The translations under genes were made by a program, and so were the position numbers. A stretch of 64,000 nt of DNA from Deltaproteobacteria bacterium (GTDB lineage: Bacteria; Desulfobacterota; Syntrophia; Syntrophales; JAFGHS01), in NCBI GenBank assembly GCA_016928025.1, contig JAFGLN010000117.1, forward strand, positions 1 to 64,000, given 5' to 3'. The notes beneath the pieces are model-generated. The model searched no databases and was not told where the DNA came from. It was given only the letters and a program-made list of their open reading frames with translations. This document shows positions 52,157 to 64,000 of this stretch, in pieces. The first letter of the stretch is position 1, and each line of letters opens with the position of its first letter.

Positions 52157-53116
52157 TCAGCCGATATCTTTGATTTCGATTCCCTGTTGCCTGATCGCCT
52201 CGGCATTCTGAAGGACTTTTTCCGCTGCGGCCCTGTCCAGAACATAGATCATTTGCCCGCCCTGTTTGGCGTACATCTTGCCGTAGGAGATGGGGACCAG
52301 GGGGGTCGGATCGTTCAAGAGCGATTCGGCGATCGGCTCTGTTTTCCGCGCGCCGTTTGCCAGCAGCACGACCGTTCGGGCCTTATACACCAGTTCCGCT
52401 CCCATGGAGACGGCGTAGGAGGGACTTTCCTGTCGGCTGGCAAAATGACCGTCCGTTACGGCGTTTTCAACCGTGTTTTCATCAAGCTTGACGAGAAGCA
52501 TCCCGTTGCCTTCAAAAGGGATGCCGGATTCATGAAAGGCCACATGACCGCGGCCGCCCACACCGATGATATGAAGATCGATTCCGCCGTTTTTCAATAT
52601 CTTTTCTTCATAGGCGTCCAGGATGGCTTGGCGGACCCATTTCAAGTAGTCCGATTTCGCCTGCGGATTAATAACGACAGCCTTTCCCTTATCGGCACCC
52701 TGCTCCTGCCAATCGGCGGGATTGGCCCGCAACGCCTCGATCAGTTTCTCCTGATCGATCAGGGTGCCCCAGGGGACGTTGGTTTCTTTAAACTTTTTGT
52801 TCAGAAGTCCGAATAACTCCTGGATCATAAAAAAGCTGTAGCTTTCCGGATGGAGCGCCCGTTGCTGGGCGTTTTCACCGGGAAGGCCGACATACTCATC
52901 CAGATTGAAACTCCGGATTTTAGTGCTGTCAAAGCTCCCTTCGTTGGCCGCTTTGGCCAGATACTTATAGAGGCCCGTCGGTGAGTTGCCCGTCGCCAAT
53001 CCCAAAGTGAAGCTGTCTTTTGCCTTTAAGACCCGTTGAATATTTTCCGTGACAAGATCGGCGGCGACCTTGCTCATCTGTTCAAAATCCCGCGTGATGA
53101 TGACTTGAAACGACAT
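52157..53116 (-). CDS. nagB: glucosamine-6-phosphate deaminase
   Basis: NagB converts glucosamine-6-phosphate to fructose-6-phosphate and ammonia. Motifs are LGLATGNSPTGLYKYL, the catalytic FNLDEYVGLP, IHIIGVGGRGHVAFHE-type GVGGRGHVAFHESGIPFEG, and YAVSMGAELVYKARTVVLLANGARK. At 319 aa it is about 55 residues longer than E. coli NagB, with most of the extra near 115-170 (QEKLIEALRANPADWQEQGADKG). This longer type occurs in other bacteria. It follows glmM by 28 nt, so the two genes, which act in opposite directions on amino-sugar phosphates, are probably co-transcribed. Confidence 0.92.
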   Translation of the reverse strand: MSFQVIITRDFEQMSKVAADLVTENIQRVLKAKDSFTLGLATGNSPTGLYKYLAKAANEGSFDSTKIRSFNLDEYVGLPGENAQQRALHPESYSFFMIQELFGLLNKKFKETNVPWGTLIDQEKLIEALRANPADWQEQGADKGKAVVINPQAKSDYLKWVRQAILDAYEEKILKNGGIDLHIIGVGGRGHVAFHESGIPFEGNGMLLVKLDENTVENAVTDGHFASRQESPSYAVSMGAELVYKARTVVLLANGARKTEPIAESLLNDPTPLVPISYGKMYAKQGGQMIYVLDRAAAEKVLQNAEAIRQQGIEIKDIG

Positions 53117-53144
53117 ATCTGCCTCCTGTTATTTGATCGTGGAA

Positions 53145-54494
53145 TCAGCCGAGCTTTTCCTTCACCACATCGGCAATCTGTTGACAGTACTTTAGGGTTT
53201 CTTCCTGCGTCGGGCCTTCCACCATCACGCGGCACATATTCTGTGTCCCCGAATACCGGACCAGGACCCGTCCGCTGGTTCCCAAATTCTCTTCCACCGA
53301 TTTGATCACGGCGACCAGTTCCGGCACCGTCGATATCTCGGGCCGGGATTTAGTGTCCACGTTGATGAGGGACTGGGGAAAGACGTCCATCACCTTGGCA
53401 AGTTCGGACAGGGGCGTTCCTTCCTTTTTCATGGCGGCGATGACCTGGAGGGCCGTCAGGATGCCGTCTCCGGTCGTATGATGCTGCAAAAAGATGACGT
53501 GGCCCGACTCCTCGCCGCCGATGGCGCTTCCTTTGGCCTGCATTTCTTCAAGGACATAGCGGTCGCCGACCTTGGTCATGATTGAGTCGATTTTCAGTTT
53601 GTCGAGGGCGACGGAAAGGCCGATGTTGCTCATGACTGTCCGGACGACGAGATTATTGGACAGGGCCCCCTCTTTTTTCATGAGGGCGGCGCAGACGGCA
53701 ATGACCTGGTCTCCCGTCAGGATTTTGCCTTTTTCATCAACGGCAATTAGACGGTCGCCGTCGCCGTCGAAGGCGAAGCCCACGTCGGCGCCCTGTTTCA
53801 CGACAACTTCGGCCAGGGCTTCCGGATGCTGGGAGCCGCATTTGACATTGATGTTTCTTCCGTCCGGATCGTCGAACAGGGTCGTGACGTCTGCGCCCAA
53901 CTCCGAGAAGGTTTCCGGCGCCACCCGGTAGGTCGCGCCGTTGGCGCAGTCCAGAACGACCTTTGATCCTTCGAGGGTGTATTCCCGGGGGAAGGTGTGT
54001 TTTAAGAAGACGACATAACGACCCCTGGCATCATCCATACGGGTGGCTTTGCCCAGATCGCTCGGTGCCGGCATGATTTTGTCCATTCTATTGTTTAGGA
54101 TCATGTCTTCGATGGCCAGCTCCGTGTCGTCGGGCAGCTTAAAACCGTTGCCGGAGAAGATCTTGATGCCGTTGTCCTGGAAGGGGTTATGGGAAGCGGA
54201 TATCACGATGCCGGCGTCGGCCCTCATGCTGCTCGTCAGATAGGCGATACCGGGCGTCGGAATGACCCCCACGAGAATGGCGTTGACGCCCATGGAGCAG
54301 ATGCCGGATACCAGGGCATTTTCCAGCATGTATCCGGAAAGACGCGTATCCTTTCCGATAAGGATTTTGGGATTATGGCCCTGGCGCTTGAACATGTGAG
54401 CGGTGGCCCGGCCGATGTTCAAGGCCATCTCCGCCGTCATGGGGTATTCATTGGCCACGCCTCTGACGCCGTCGGTTCCGAATAATTTTCCCAT
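53145..54494 (-). CDS. glmM: phosphoglucosamine mutase
   Basis: GlmM interconverts glucosamine-6-phosphate and glucosamine-1-phosphate for UDP-GlcNAc and cell-wall synthesis. The 449-aa protein starts MGKLFGTDGVRGVANEYPMT. It has phosphoserine S101 in ISASHNPFQDNGIK, the metal loop FDGDGDR, the sugar loop GGEESGH and the phosphate-binding RYSGTQNMCRVMVEG. I start at ATG 54494, preceded by AAAGGAG; the frame is open a further 24 codons upstream but without family similarity. Confidence 0.96.
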   Translation of the reverse strand: MGKLFGTDGVRGVANEYPMTAEMALNIGRATAHMFKRQGHNPKILIGKDTRLSGYMLENALVSGICSMGVNAILVGVIPTPGIAYLTSSMRADAGIVISASHNPFQDNGIKIFSGNGFKLPDDTELAIEDMILNNRMDKIMPAPSDLGKATRMDDARGRYVVFLKHTFPREYTLEGSKVVLDCANGATYRVAPETFSELGADVTTLFDDPDGRNINVKCGSQHPEALAEVVVKQGADVGFAFDGDGDRLIAVDEKGKILTGDQVIAVCAALMKKEGALSNNLVVRTVMSNIGLSVALDKLKIDSIMTKVGDRYVLEEMQAKGSAIGGEESGHVIFLQHHTTGDGILTALQVIAAMKKEGTPLSELAKVMDVFPQSLINVDTKSRPEISTVPELVAVIKSVEENLGTSGRVLVRYSGTQNMCRVMVEGPTQEETLKYCQQIADVVKEKLG

Positions 54495-54680
54495 AAGAAT
54501 CTCCTTTAAATTTAAAGTATTTTCAATACAGCGTTGATTTCTACTATAGGCAGGTTGGTTTTGCAATACGGAAAGTTTTGCCGTTCGTTACGGAAGGGGG
54601 GGCAGGAGGGGGATCGATTTTTTATCCTTGAATCTTGGTCTTTGTTCCTTGACCCTTCTTCTTTTCGGCATCGGCGGTCG

Positions 54681-55658
54681 TCAGGAAATCATTTGGCGAA
54701 TGAGGACGGCAAGTTTTTTCGAATCATGTCGGATAATGCCGCCCGCCATGTTCAGCAGATGGGCGGAATAAATTTTTCGATGTTCCCAAAACGCTTCATC
54801 GCCGTCTATTTCAACAAAATCCGCCTGTTCCTCCTCTTTATAGCGTTCGAGTATTTTCCGTTTCGGTTTTTGGGTATTATAGATGATTCCGTCGACGGTA
54901 CGGCCGATGAAGTATTCGATGCTTTTGACAAAGTCGCATCCCGTAAAATTATTGGTTTCACCATACTTGGTCATGATGTTGACGACGTAAAAGATGTTTG
55001 CCTTCGTTTCCATAATGGCTTCCTTAACGCCCGGGACCAGGAGGTTCGGAATGATGCTGGTAAACAAATCGCCGGGACCGATGATGATATAATCGGCCTG
55101 ACCGATGGCATCAATGACGGGCGGATAGGCCGATATTTCATCATGATGGTGCGGTACGAGATAAATGTCCTTGATTTGTTCCCGCTGTGTTTCCCGGGGG
55201 ATGTTAATCGCTCTTTGTCCGTAGATGCGGCAACCGTCCGTCAATTCGGCAACCAGGGTGGCCTTGTCGACCGTCACCGGCAGGATGACGCCCCGGGCGT
55301 CGAGGATTTCCGACAGGGCGTTGACCCCTGTCGCGAAGTTGCCCGTATATTCGGCCAGCATCGTCAACAGCATATTGCCGGCATTGTGCCCCTGCAGACG
55401 GCTGTCGACGGTCAACCTTTTTAATAAAATGGTACGGATGACGTCTCGTTGCGGAGAAAGGGCCAGGACGCATTTCAAAACGTCCCCGGGCGGCAGGATG
55501 CCCAACTCGTCGCGAAGTCTTCCCGTGCTGCCCCCGCTGTCCGCCATGGACACAATGGCCGTTATATCAATGTCTTCAATATCGCGCAGACCTGACAGTA
55601 AAGCGAATTGACCGCTCCCTCCCCCGATGGTGACGATCTTTTGCTTCTCTTTTTTCAT
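54681..55658 (-). CDS. yvcK: gluconeogenesis factor YvcK (CofD-like)
   Basis: This 325-aa protein of the CofD/YvcK family is predicted to bind UDP-sugars and influence peptidoglycan synthesis and carbon use. Motifs are IVTIGGGSGQFALLSGLR, VSMADSGGSTGRLRDELGILPPGDVLKCVLAL, GHNAGNMLLTMLAEYTGN and DYIIIGPGDLFTSIIPNLLVPGVKEAI. It lies upstream of glmM and nagB on the same strand. It shares a cell-wall precursor theme with them and with the diadenylate cyclase gene 4 kb away. Confidence 0.93.
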   Translation of the reverse strand: MKKEKQKIVTIGGGSGQFALLSGLRDIEDIDITAIVSMADSGGSTGRLRDELGILPPGDVLKCVLALSPQRDVIRTILLKRLTVDSRLQGHNAGNMLLTMLAEYTGNFATGVNALSEILDARGVILPVTVDKATLVAELTDGCRIYGQRAINIPRETQREQIKDIYLVPHHHDEISAYPPVIDAIGQADYIIIGPGDLFTSIIPNLLVPGVKEAIMETKANIFYVVNIMTKYGETNNFTGCDFVKSIEYFIGRTVDGIIYNTQKPKRKILERYKEEEQADFVEIDGDEAFWEHRKIYSAHLLNMAGGIIRHDSKKLAVLIRQMIS

Positions 55659-59902: not shown

Positions 59903-61372
59903 ATGACCGATCAGATTCTTGGCGTGTTGCAGAGCATAAGAATCCAGGATGTTTTTGATGTAGCCATTATCGCCGGCATGATTTTTGTGCTGTTGACCTG
60001 GTTTAAAGATCGGGCGTCGCGTTTTGTCCTTGTCGGCATCAGCCTGCTCGGCGTCGTTTATCTTATTGCCCGTTTTTTCCAGTTGTATCTTACAACCATT
60101 GCCCTCCAGGGTTTTTTCGCCATCCTCCTGTTCGTCCTCGTGGTTATATTTCAGGAAGACCTGCGGCGATTTTTTGAACGTCTGGCCGTATGGGGCGTGT
60201 TTCGCAAACGGAAATATGATTCATCGCCGCGGCATGCTTATGTCAATATCATTGCCGATACGGTGGATAGTTTATCGAGAAGGCGCACCGGCGCCCTCAT
60301 CGTCATCCAGGGCCACGATCCTCTGGGGCGGCATCTGACGGGCGGAACGGAATTAGACGGCGTCATCAGCCAACCTCTGCTGGAGAGCATTTTTGATCCC
60401 CATTCCGCCGGTCATGACGGCGCTGTGCTGATTCTGGGGCATCGGATTACCCGATTCGGTTGCCATTTGCCCCTCTCCATCGATTCGAGCCGTTATCCCA
60501 ATGTCGGTCTTCGCCATACGGCCGCCCTTGGTCTTGCGGAAAGATCGGATGCCATGTGCATTGTCGTGTCGGAGGAACGGGGCAGTGTTTCCATTGCCCG
60601 GCGGGAAAGACTTCATCCGGTACAGAGTATCACTGAGCTGAAATCCGCCATTGAATCCTTCTATGAAGAAAAAGCACCCGAGGCAAAACAGAAATTTTTA
60701 ACCCGCTGGTTAAAAGATAATCCGCGTGAGAAGATTATGGCCGTCTTGCTGGCCTGCATCCTCTGGTTTTTCTTCGGCTATCAAAAAGAATCCATCAGCC
60801 GGGACTTTGTCGTGCCCATCGAATATATAAACGTGTCAAAAGATTGGGTCATTCAAGAATCGAAAACCACCCGAGCCAAGGTTGTTTTAACGGGTTCTTA
60901 TCAGGGGTTTCAGCTTCTGAATGATGAAAGCCTTAAATTTTCCATTGATCTGTCAAACCTAAAAAACGGTTGGCAGGAATTTATCCTGACCAAAGAAATG
61001 ATTAATGTACCGTCCAATTTGTCTGTGGACACCATATCACCCCGCTATGTACAGGTTCGTGCCTCCCGTTTAATATCCGTTTCCTATCCGGTAGATGTTA
61101 TCACGAAAAACGAGCCGCTAAAGGGTTTGAAAGTGGAGCAGATAACGGTGACGCCTTTAACCGTCAAGATTCTGTTGCCGGCCAATGTCCAGCATAAAAA
61201 TATTAAAATAAAAACGGAACCGATCGATCTCAAGTTGATGCAAACGTCGACGATCATAGAGCCCAGAATTCTGTATCCGCCGGAAGCACAGTTCCCGGGA
61301 GGCAAACCGCCGTCCGTTAAGGTCTATATAAAAATTGAGGAGGCAGCGGCGAATAAGAATACTAATGATTGA
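59903..61372 (+). CDS. cdaA: diadenylate cyclase CdaA fused to YbbR (CdaR-like) domains
   Basis: This 489-aa protein joins a c-di-AMP synthase to its usual regulator. There are three N-terminal helices (about 18-33, 40-58 and 65-83). The DAC domain follows (about 100-255) with D172-G-A (HSAGHDGAVLI) and R204-H-T (VGLRHTAALGL), the catalytic and ATP-binding motifs. A fourth helix (KIMAVLLACILWFFFGY, about 278-293) precedes an extracytoplasmic part with two YbbR-like repeats (RDFVVPIEYINVSKDW; LISVSYPVDVITKNEP). In Firmicutes cdaA and cdaR are separate genes beside glmM. Product c-di-AMP usually controls potassium, osmolyte balance and cell wall. Confidence 0.88.
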   Translation: MTDQILGVLQSIRIQDVFDVAIIAGMIFVLLTWFKDRASRFVLVGISLLGVVYLIARFFQLYLTTIALQGFFAILLFVLVVIFQEDLRRFFERLAVWGVFRKRKYDSSPRHAYVNIIADTVDSLSRRRTGALIVIQGHDPLGRHLTGGTELDGVISQPLLESIFDPHSAGHDGAVLILGHRITRFGCHLPLSIDSSRYPNVGLRHTAALGLAERSDAMCIVVSEERGSVSIARRERLHPVQSITELKSAIESFYEEKAPEAKQKFLTRWLKDNPREKIMAVLLACILWFFFGYQKESISRDFVVPIEYINVSKDWVIQESKTTRAKVVLTGSYQGFQLLNDESLKFSIDLSNLKNGWQEFILTKEMINVPSNLSVDTISPRYVQVRASRLISVSYPVDVITKNEPLKGLKVEQITVTPLTVKILLPANVQHKNIKIKTEPIDLKLMQTSTIIEPRILYPPEAQFPGGKPPSVKVYIKIEEAAANKNTND

Positions 61373-61555
61373 AAAGACAATGCGTTTTGAATATAGTAAT
61401 CAAAAGATTATTGGTTGGGACTGGGGTTTCATAAAAACAATCATTCCAGAGTCCCTTTGTTTACGTTTATTTTCTATACGGTTGTCGTTTTTCCAGGTTC
61501 ATGGGGGAAGTCCTGGACCGTAGTGATCGGCAACACCAAAACAGGAGGATTTAAT

Positions 61556-62032
61556 ATGAGTTCATTTGAGGCGACGGATATTCTGGAATTTGCCATTAGA
61601 ATCGAAGAGAACGGGGCAAATTTCTATCGTTTTGCCGTCCAGATTGTCAAAGGTGAAGATGCAAAAAAATTGTTCACCCGTTTGGCTGACGAGGAAGACA
61701 ATCATAAAAGAACGTTTGAGAAGATCTATGCCGCTATGGAAAAAACCAATATTCCGGAGAGTTACGATGGCGAGTACCGGGCGTATCTTCATGATTATGT
61801 CGATAACAGCATTGTTTTTTCCAAGGAGGCCATGACGGAGGAGTTAAAGAAAGTGACGGACACCCTTTCGGCGATCGATTTTGCCATCCGTCGCGAGATG
61901 GATTCCATCTTATATTACAGTGAGATTAAAAGGTTTGTTCCGGCGAATCAGCATGACATGATCGATAAAATCATTGAAGAGGAGAGACGGCATTTTTCCG
62001 TCTTGTCGGAGATTAGGAAAAAATACTGCTAA
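61556..62032 (+). CDS. ferritin-like/rubrerythrin-type diiron protein
   Basis: This 158-aa four-helix protein has carboxylate and histidine ligands of a diiron site: E in IRIEENGANFYRFA, E and H in LADEEDNHKRTF, and E plus E/H in IRREMDSILYYSE and EEERRHFSVL. It lacks the rubredoxin-like C-terminal cysteines of classical rubrerythrin, though it ends in a lone cysteine. A role in peroxide or oxygen defence or iron handling is likely. ACAGGAGG lies 6 nt before ATG 61556; the frame upstream is not used. Confidence 0.88.
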   Translation: MSSFEATDILEFAIRIEENGANFYRFAVQIVKGEDAKKLFTRLADEEDNHKRTFEKIYAAMEKTNIPESYDGEYRAYLHDYVDNSIVFSKEAMTEELKKVTDTLSAIDFAIRREMDSILYYSEIKRFVPANQHDMIDKIIEEERRHFSVLSEIRKKYC

Positions 62033-62052
62033 GGCAGATCTGAACATTCGAC

Positions 62053-62094
62053 AAAGGCGCTCCGTCTGTTATAAGACGGAGCGCCTTTGTGTTT
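62053..62094 (+). terminator. strong intrinsic terminator
   Basis: AAAGGCGCTCCGTCT (62053-62067), loop GTTATA and AGACGGAGCGCCTTT (62074-62088) form a perfect 15-bp stem followed by GTGTTT. It is 20 bp past the ferritin-like gene. Confidence 0.9.
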
Positions 62095-62133
62095 GATAAG
62101 ACGCCGAACAATAAAGAACAGATCAATATTTCA

Positions 62134-62256
62134 AAGGGCTTTGTAAAAAAACCTGCAGGTAAGGCGCGCGAATCACGAGGCGTGAGGCGTACTTTCACTT
62201 ACGCCGCCACAACGAGTGATGAAGCGCAACGTAGCATCCGGGCTTTTTACGAAGGC
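62134..62256. repeat. possible small repeat with GTAAAAA ends
   Basis: GGGCTTTGTAAAAAAACC on the left and GGGCTTTTTACGAAGGCC on the right are partial inverted copies, with CGAGGCGTGAGGCGTA inside. Similar CGTGAGGCGTGAGG lies at 4086. It is too diverged for a firm call and overlaps no gene. Confidence 0.3.
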
Positions 62257-62259
62257 CTG

Positions 62260-63627
62260 TCAATGTTTGAAGCCGTACTTCTTGAGCTTATATCTCAACA
62301 TCCGCTCACTGATCCCGAGGATATCCGCCGCCTTTGTCTGGTGATCGCCTGCCTTTTCCATGGCCTCGGCGATCAGTTTTTTCTCCAGATCTTCAATGGA
62401 ACCCCGCAGAAGCCCCTCACCCTTCGTCGCGTCTTCCGCCTGCATGAATGTCTCATCGCGAAAGGGCAGATCTTCTATGGAGATGACGGGCTCTCTGGAT
62501 ATGACGACGGCCCGCTCCAGAATGTTTTCCAGTTCCCGGACATTGCCCGGATAATCGTATTTTATGAGAAGATCTTGCGCCTCGCTGCTCAGGCCTTCAA
62601 TCGTCTTGCCGTTTTCTTCGGAAAATCGCTTCAAAAAATAGTCGATCAATGCGGGGATGTCTTCTTTCCTTTCCCGTAGCGGCGGGATCGACATAACGAC
62701 GACATTGAGTCGATAGTAAAGGTCTTCGCGAAAGAAACCCTCCCGGACCCGAACCTCAAGGTTCCGATTGGTGGCGCTGATGATTCTGACATCCGAGCGG
62801 ATAGTTTGATTACCCCCGAGGCGCTGGAATTCCCGCTCCTGTAAAAACCGCAGCAGCTTAACCTGGATGGCTGCCGACAGCTCACCGATTTCGTCCAGAA
62901 ATAAAGTGCCCCCGTCGGCCTCTTCAAAGCGGCCGATCCGCCTCGTCGCGGCTCCCGTGAACGCCCCCCGTTCATGGCCGAAGAGTTCGCTTTCCAAGAG
63001 ATTTTCGTGCAAAGCACCGCAATTCACAATCATAATGGGCTTTGATGATCGCGGGCTCAAGTTGTGGATCAATCTGGCGAAAAGCTCCTTGCCCGTTCCG
63101 CTTTCACCCTGGAGAAGGACGGTCGCCCGGCTTGCGGCAATTCTACCGGCAATATTGATAAGATTGCTCATTTTTTGGCTTTGGTAAATGATCTTGCTGG
63201 TGGTAACGCCCTTTTCCTGGAGGATGCCGCGGAGCATCTCATTTTCACGGATCAGGTTTCGTCTGTCGGAGACGTGATCGACTAAAATAAGCAGTTCTTC
63301 AAATTCGATGGGTTTGGTGATGTAATCAATGGCTCCGGCCTTCATGGCCTCAACAGCCGTTTCAATCGTTCCATAGGCGGTAATGATGACAATATCGATT
63401 TCCGGGTTGATCGTTTTGACTTCCTGGAGTACCTGCATGCCGTCCATACCGGGCATTTTGTAGTCCAAAAGCAGCAGATCGAAATGGTCGCTGCGAACTT
63501 TCTGGACGGCTGTTTCTCCATTTTCCGCCTCATCGACCTTGTGCCCTTCTCTGATAAGAAACTCGCTCAGCATTTTTCTTTGGGACCGGCCATCCTCAAC
63601 GACAAGAATGTTTAACTTTTTCATCAT
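62260..63627 (-). CDS. NtrC-family sigma-54 response regulator
   Basis: This 455-aa protein has a receiver with D55 ([17 protein letters not shown]), T in IITAYG and K in ITKPIEF. The AAA+ domain has Walker A GESGTGKE, sigma-54 loop GAFTGAA, Walker B TLFLDEIG and arginine region DLYYRLNVV. The Fis-type helix-turn-helix is [24 protein letters not shown]. It resembles ZraR/AtoC-type regulators. A kinase gene lies just upstream on the same strand (36 nt apart), which makes a two-component pair. ATG 63627 or the adjacent ATG 63624 may be the start. Confidence 0.92.
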
Positions 63628-63663
63628 TTGCCCTTTTTATCATGATGTACTTTTGAGTTTTTT

Positions 63664-64000
63664 TCAGTTGCTTTTCGCCCGGGGGAGGGTCACTTTAAAC
63701 GTTGTACCGGACCCCTGTCGGCTTGTTACCTGAATGTCGCCGCCGTGACCGCGGATAATTTCATGGGCAAGAGAGAGCCCGAGGCCCAGTCCCTTCTCCT
63801 TGGTCGTATATTCGGGACTGAAAATACGCTCGATTTCGTCGGATGACATCCCGCAGCCCGTATCCGTTATTTTAATGCCCAGTCGATCCTTATCGGAATT
63901 CTCGATGGATAAAGTGATGGACCCTTCCCCGGAGATGGATTCCATGGCGTTTTTGATCAAATTGAAGAGGGCCTGCTGCAGTTTATCCATATCCATCGGG
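63664..64000 (-). CDS. sensor histidine kinase, C-terminal part (runs off the window)
   Basis: Only the HATPase domain is in the window: N box LQQALFNLIKNAMESI, G1 ITDTGCGMSSDEI, F box IFSPEYTTKEKGLGLGLSLAHEIIRGHGG, and G3-like GSGTTFKVTLPRAKSN at the end. The 5' part with the sensor and phospho-accepting histidine lies beyond 64000. It is probably the partner of the regulator at 62260. Confidence 0.9.
   Translation of the reverse strand, partial: PMDMDKLQQALFNLIKNAMESISGEGSITLSIENSDKDRLGIKITDTGCGMSSDEIERIFSPEYTTKEKGLGLGLSLAHEIIRGHGGDIQVTSRQGSGTTFKVTLPRAKSN

Follow-up and report, generated by a model that had tools for sequence, protein, structure and literature searches.

The window, that is, the whole 64,000-nucleotide stretch of DNA analyzed here, covers positions 1 to 64,000 of contig JAFGLN010000117.1 from a Deltaproteobacteria bacterium (Syntrophales, JAFGHS01; GCA_016928025.1), whose 3.68-Mb assembly comprises 126 contigs and is 89% complete. 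Its forward strand carries, at 59903..61372, one uninterrupted frame of 489 amino acids (ATG to TGA) in which CdaA is fused with its regulator CdaR. The nearest named records of the protein belong to uncultured Syntrophales (Syntrophus, Smithella and Syntrophaceae MAGs), and viral contigs contained no relatives. Since it was the only diadenylate cyclase (DAC) found in this 89%-complete assembly, it is predicted to be the likely source of c-di-AMP.

Downstream of the fused gene, positions 61415-63996 hold a rubrerythrin-like gene followed by a sigma-54 response regulator and a histidine kinase on the other strand, a set that also occurs near the fused gene in many relatives. At related loci (L062-L141, for example L064:2812-3885) the Mg2+/Co2+ transporter gene corA lies downstream of the fused cyclase, and in the window the rubrerythrin-like gene occupies that place. 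Upstream, an amino-sugar cluster on the reverse strand (52157-55658; about 4 kb from the cyclase, its genes lying 4-8 kb upstream) contains adjoining nagB-like, glmM and yvcK/glmR genes. The phosphoglucosamine mutase gene glmM (53145..54566, reverse strand; TIGR01455, 600 bits at 53157-54482) is about 5.4 kb upstream of the fused gene and on the opposite strand rather than directly downstream as in the known operon, and is accompanied by a gene for a YvcK/GlmR-like UDP-GlcNAc-binding protein (54681..55658, reverse strand; TIGR01826, 295 bits). A conserved operon with glmM/glmR was rejected because, in a neighbor search within the flanks covered, the same-genus locus was the only one with glmR close to the fused gene.

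Domain architecture of the fused protein

The initial annotation had described three N-terminal helices, a DAC domain, a further helix and two YbbR-like repeats in a single frame, and this layout was borne out by AF2 models, Foldseek and Pfam, with the CdaA_N, DAC and YbbR profiles each scoring above the curated cut-off. All features below lie on the forward strand. The CdaA_N transmembrane domain (residues 10-87, 59930..60163; PF19293, E=5.2e-6, 27.0 bits against a cut-off of 23.8) has the three helices typical of CdaA, placed at residues 14-37, 40-58 and 62-82 in the AF2 model. It is followed by the DAC domain (residues 120-236, 60260..60610; PF02457, E=3.5e-35, 120.6 bits). A Foldseek search with the full model matched solved CdaA/DacA domains (CdaA, 3e-15), with 35% identity over 140 columns to solved CdaA. 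A fourth transmembrane helix (residues 274-292, 60722..60778; AF2) is the counterpart of the N-terminal anchor of separate CdaR proteins, and many unfused YbbR ORFs matched an HMM of the YbbR part (residues 268-489) starting near its first position.

The annotation had made its reading depend on a YbbR match within residues 300-489, to be sought together with DAC by HMM search, and PF07949 indeed gave two stretches there. The best of them is YbbR domain 1 (residues 304-386, 60812..61060; E=2.8e-6, 28.0 bits against a cut-off of 22.3; Foldseek matches to 4QDY, 5HQH and 2KPU), and the second is YbbR domain 2 (residues ~388-480, 61064..61342), which also has a Foldseek match to 4QDY and the corresponding AF2 strands. 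Modeled alone, the C-terminal 200 residues reached a pLDDT of 89; this C-terminal half matched the two-domain YbbR-like protein 4QDY with E=4.3e-10 (205 columns for 200 residues), with weaker matches to single YbbR domains from Listeria (lmo2119) and Desulfitobacterium. Among 27 homologs, Pfam recognized DAC and CdaA_N in all 27 and YbbR in 26. The full-chain AF2 model contains three long N-terminal helices, a DAC fold, helix 274-292 and two beta-rich domains; their relative arrangement is left uncertain because the whole-chain pTM is 0.38. It should be noted that a PF07949 search of the whole genome missed even the fused YbbR part, so such a search could not show the genome to be without a separate CdaR.

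Compared with CdaR/YbbR proteins (Listeria lmo2119, domain 5HQH; Streptococcus pneumoniae SP_1560, 4QDY), the C-terminal half has the same single anchor helix and YbbR repeats, predicted here to be extracytoplasmic. It differs in having two YbbR repeats only and in not being a separate protein: there is a single frame with no conserved internal start.

Distribution and origin of the fusion

Sixty relatives were sampled, one from the same genus as the window and the others from the same order (Syntrophales); near-full-length homologs were identified in 42 of them, nearly all in an uninterrupted frame. Across the phylum, 297 genomes were drawn evenly; with all counts being lower bounds among the matches listed, at least 88 genomes (at least 30%) had a one-frame fusion, at least 66 of these fusions were matched over both YbbR domains, and at least 23 further genomes had cdaA and ybbR in frame with each other but divided by a stop. 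Thus, the earlier view of the layout as unusual was only partly right, as it is common in Syntrophales and reaches the above share of the phylum sample. Because of that share, the fused CdaA-CdaR is, on sequence comparison, a conserved variant in its own right rather than an isolated curiosity. Profile searches of six-frame ORFs revealed three layouts: fusions carrying two YbbR domains, fusions carrying a single one, and neighboring unfused genes that either overlap or are separated by one stop. Fused cyclases with one YbbR domain, of about 400-434 amino acids, were found at L165, L218, L220, L223, L225, L227 and L229 (one in a longer open frame), and one genome (G057) carried a one-YbbR and a two-YbbR fusion together. 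In the closest relative, of the same genus (G247; L033, contig C189), the DAC domain contains an in-frame TAA, which reflects either a pseudogene or a MAG error; intact fused copies are present elsewhere.

The sequence comes from a MAG, and the phylum has many unfused cdaA-ybbR pairs whose genes are separated by one stop. It could therefore be argued that an error in sequencing or assembly had merged two genes, or that an internal start yields two proteins from one frame. The annotation was correct that no internal stop exists, but its statement that there is no internal start did not hold: an in-frame ATG (60737..60739, forward strand) lies at residue 279, at the CdaR anchor where a CdaR start would be expected. 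This ATG is not conserved in homologs and is thus unlikely to serve as an internal start. Nor has a stop been lost by sequencing error, since 27 aligned homologs read through the junction, with E276, K277, A280, W288, F291, Y293 and Q294 invariant. The single frame and the conserved junction are common to many independent genomes, and the fused proteins branch deeply as a clade of their own; together these findings rule out joining by error. Overall, an artefact of either kind is extremely improbable, and on this sequence evidence the fusion is real and old.

Phylogenetic analysis, in which the loci were best hits within this phylum only, addressed the transmembrane and DAC part. In an unrooted tree of 130 proteins, all 51 unfused proteins fell behind a single branch labeled 100, so that one change between the fused and unfused states was needed. 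In a more careful tree of 84 rows with a small outgroup of two Gram-positive CdaA sequences, 50 fused proteins formed one clade (100/100, length 0.8) nested among the unfused ones. The window protein, with DAC and YbbR in one frame, was placed in this clade. Such nesting among unfused cdaA and ybbR pairs suggests that an operonic cdaA-cdaR pair fused once, long ago. The Firmicutes cdaA-cdaR-glmM operon and the unfused pairs of this phylum have the same two proteins adjoining, often overlapping or one stop apart; those are two genes, whereas the fused proteins are a separate clade that stands beside the pair in some genomes. Both forms were present in about ten genomes (G014, G025, G056, G092, G098, G142, G153, G202, G246 and G283), in which the fused protein is thus a lasting paralog.

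Active site and predicted function

Two motifs noted in the initial annotation, DGA at D172 and RHT at R204, were confirmed and align with D171GA and R203HR of Bacillus subtilis CdaA. The DGA motif (D172-G173-A174, 60416..60424, forward strand) is of the CdaA type and invariant in all fused proteins. In R204-H205-T206 (60512..60520, forward strand), which aligns with the RHR motif, the third Arg is replaced by Thr; RHR was present in all 51 unfused CdaA-type DACs sampled. The window protein also scored below the cut-off of the NCBIfam equivalog TIGR00159 (173.3 versus 188.8 bits). As a variant of CdaA/DacA (B. subtilis, Staphylococcus aureus and Listeria; TIGR00159, PF19293 plus PF02457), it therefore shares the three transmembrane helices, the DAC fold, DGA and the first two residues of RHR, but departs from the family in the third Arg and the TIGR00159 score, in having RHT together with G170/H188/L203, and in carrying a CdaR half at the C terminus of the same chain.

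Of 72 two-YbbR fusions, 43 have Thr at the third RHR position, in every case together with G170, H188 and L203 (in B. subtilis positions, L169G, Y187H, T202L and R205T); the complete signature G170/H188/L203/T206 was seen in none of the 51 unfused enzymes. The third Arg is kept in all 51 unfused proteins, the outgroup and early-branching fused lineages. This co-varying active-site signature of the window's sub-clade is a new observation. R126, a GlmM contact residue of B. subtilis CdaA, corresponds to R127 by alignment and does not discriminate fused from unfused proteins, because the position is mostly K/R in both. Replacement of RHR by AAA abolishes activity in DacA (DisA type) of Mycobacterium tuberculosis and CdaM of Mycobacterium bovis (PMC3328451, PMC13022847); a literature search found no activity test of a single change of the third Arg. 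A second DAC occurs in many other Syntrophales genomes (L237-L239); the three that were read have ~290-298 amino acids and an RHI motif, and a DacZ_P sensor domain was confirmed in one of them. The window's genome, which is 89% complete, yielded no such second, DacZ_P-type DAC.

It is conceivable that the cyclase is degenerate or strongly down-tuned, the YbbR and transmembrane parts serving a structural role in the envelope while c-di-AMP comes mainly from another DAC. The change from RHR to RHT with its three co-changes in the sub-clade, the DacZ_P-type DACs of several other Syntrophales and the TAA in the same-genus copy would fit such a loss. However, every fused row retains D172, G173, A174, R204, H205, S223 and E224, and all but one retain E225; this invariance of all other catalytic residues over divergent homologs is as expected under selection for catalysis. 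Furthermore, this protein is the only DAC found in the genome of the window, and DAC proteins do not universally have the third Arg, given the RHI of DacZ_P-type DACs. We thus consider degeneration unlikely. Counting against an active cyclase, alongside the Thr in place of the third Arg and the low TIGR00159 score, neither the c-di-AMP riboswitch RF00379 nor a PgpH-type phosphodiesterase (PgpH HDED) domain was found in the window's 89%-complete genome, where a 328-residue DHHA1 protein was only a candidate-level phosphodiesterase.

With a probability of roughly 80%, we favor a predicted active CdaA that would sense the periplasm and to which its regulator CdaR is tethered in cis, the two having fused once from an operonic pair and been kept as a separate lineage. 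In the predicted topology, a complete CdaA (three transmembrane helices and a cytoplasmic DAC domain) would be followed by a short basic linker, the fourth transmembrane helix and a complete CdaR part, whose two YbbR domains this helix would place in the periplasm. The DAC domains of two chains would pair head to head and convert ATP to c-di-AMP. Binding outside may alter DAC dimerization: the YbbR part near the envelope would change how the four helices of the membrane bundle pack, and hence the pairing, so that synthesis could be tuned to an envelope or osmotic cue. It is plausible, as had been proposed, that an outside signal reaches the cyclase directly. The fixed 1:1 stoichiometry claimed earlier follows from both parts being in one chain. 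CdaA, CdaR and GlmM of Firmicutes assemble into a complex, and CdaR is reported to activate or repress depending on conditions, acting via or contacting the CdaA transmembrane region (PMC8573169). In Porphyromonas gingivalis, loss of cdaR raises c-di-AMP (PMC9259658), and in Chlamydia it was suggested that YbbR limits c-di-AMP output and that the balance of DacA and YbbR matters (PMC12422730), which would be a reason to lock the ratio.

The gene neighborhood raises the question of whether the fusion instead ties the cyclase to cation (Mg2+) homeostasis, its c-di-AMP controlling CorA. In about 32 of 80 Syntrophales loci corA is directly downstream on the same strand, mostly at -13 to 93 bases, and Pfam and NCBIfam confirmed the CorA identity of one representative. 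Yet the window, whose corA is on another contig, and many relatives have no corA neighbor, and a literature search found no link between c-di-AMP and CorA; this explanation is accordingly given little weight. A more speculative extension of the tethered-regulator reading, possible but rather doubtful, is that the DAC of the window's sub-clade was re-tuned after the single fusion, with altered kinetics, regulation or even substrate/product, may depend on its own periplasmic YbbR and is linked in many relatives to CorA and Mg2+.

A search of titles, abstracts and a few full texts found no paper describing a CdaA-CdaR or DAC-YbbR fusion. The survey 'All DACs in a row' (Galperin 2023) reportedly classifies diadenylate cyclases into 22 families and may already list the fused layout as such. 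The way in which CdaR controls CdaA has yet to be settled (PMC8573169), and a natural one-chain version bears on it. In this covalent system the regulator cannot dissociate, which makes it suited to structural work and to testing whether the outside part of CdaR signals to the cyclase. The RHT variant, in turn, raises the question of whether a cyclase can work without the third Arg of the 'essential' RHR motif. The one-chain form is conserved across much of a Gram-negative phylum, alongside the two-gene form in some genomes.
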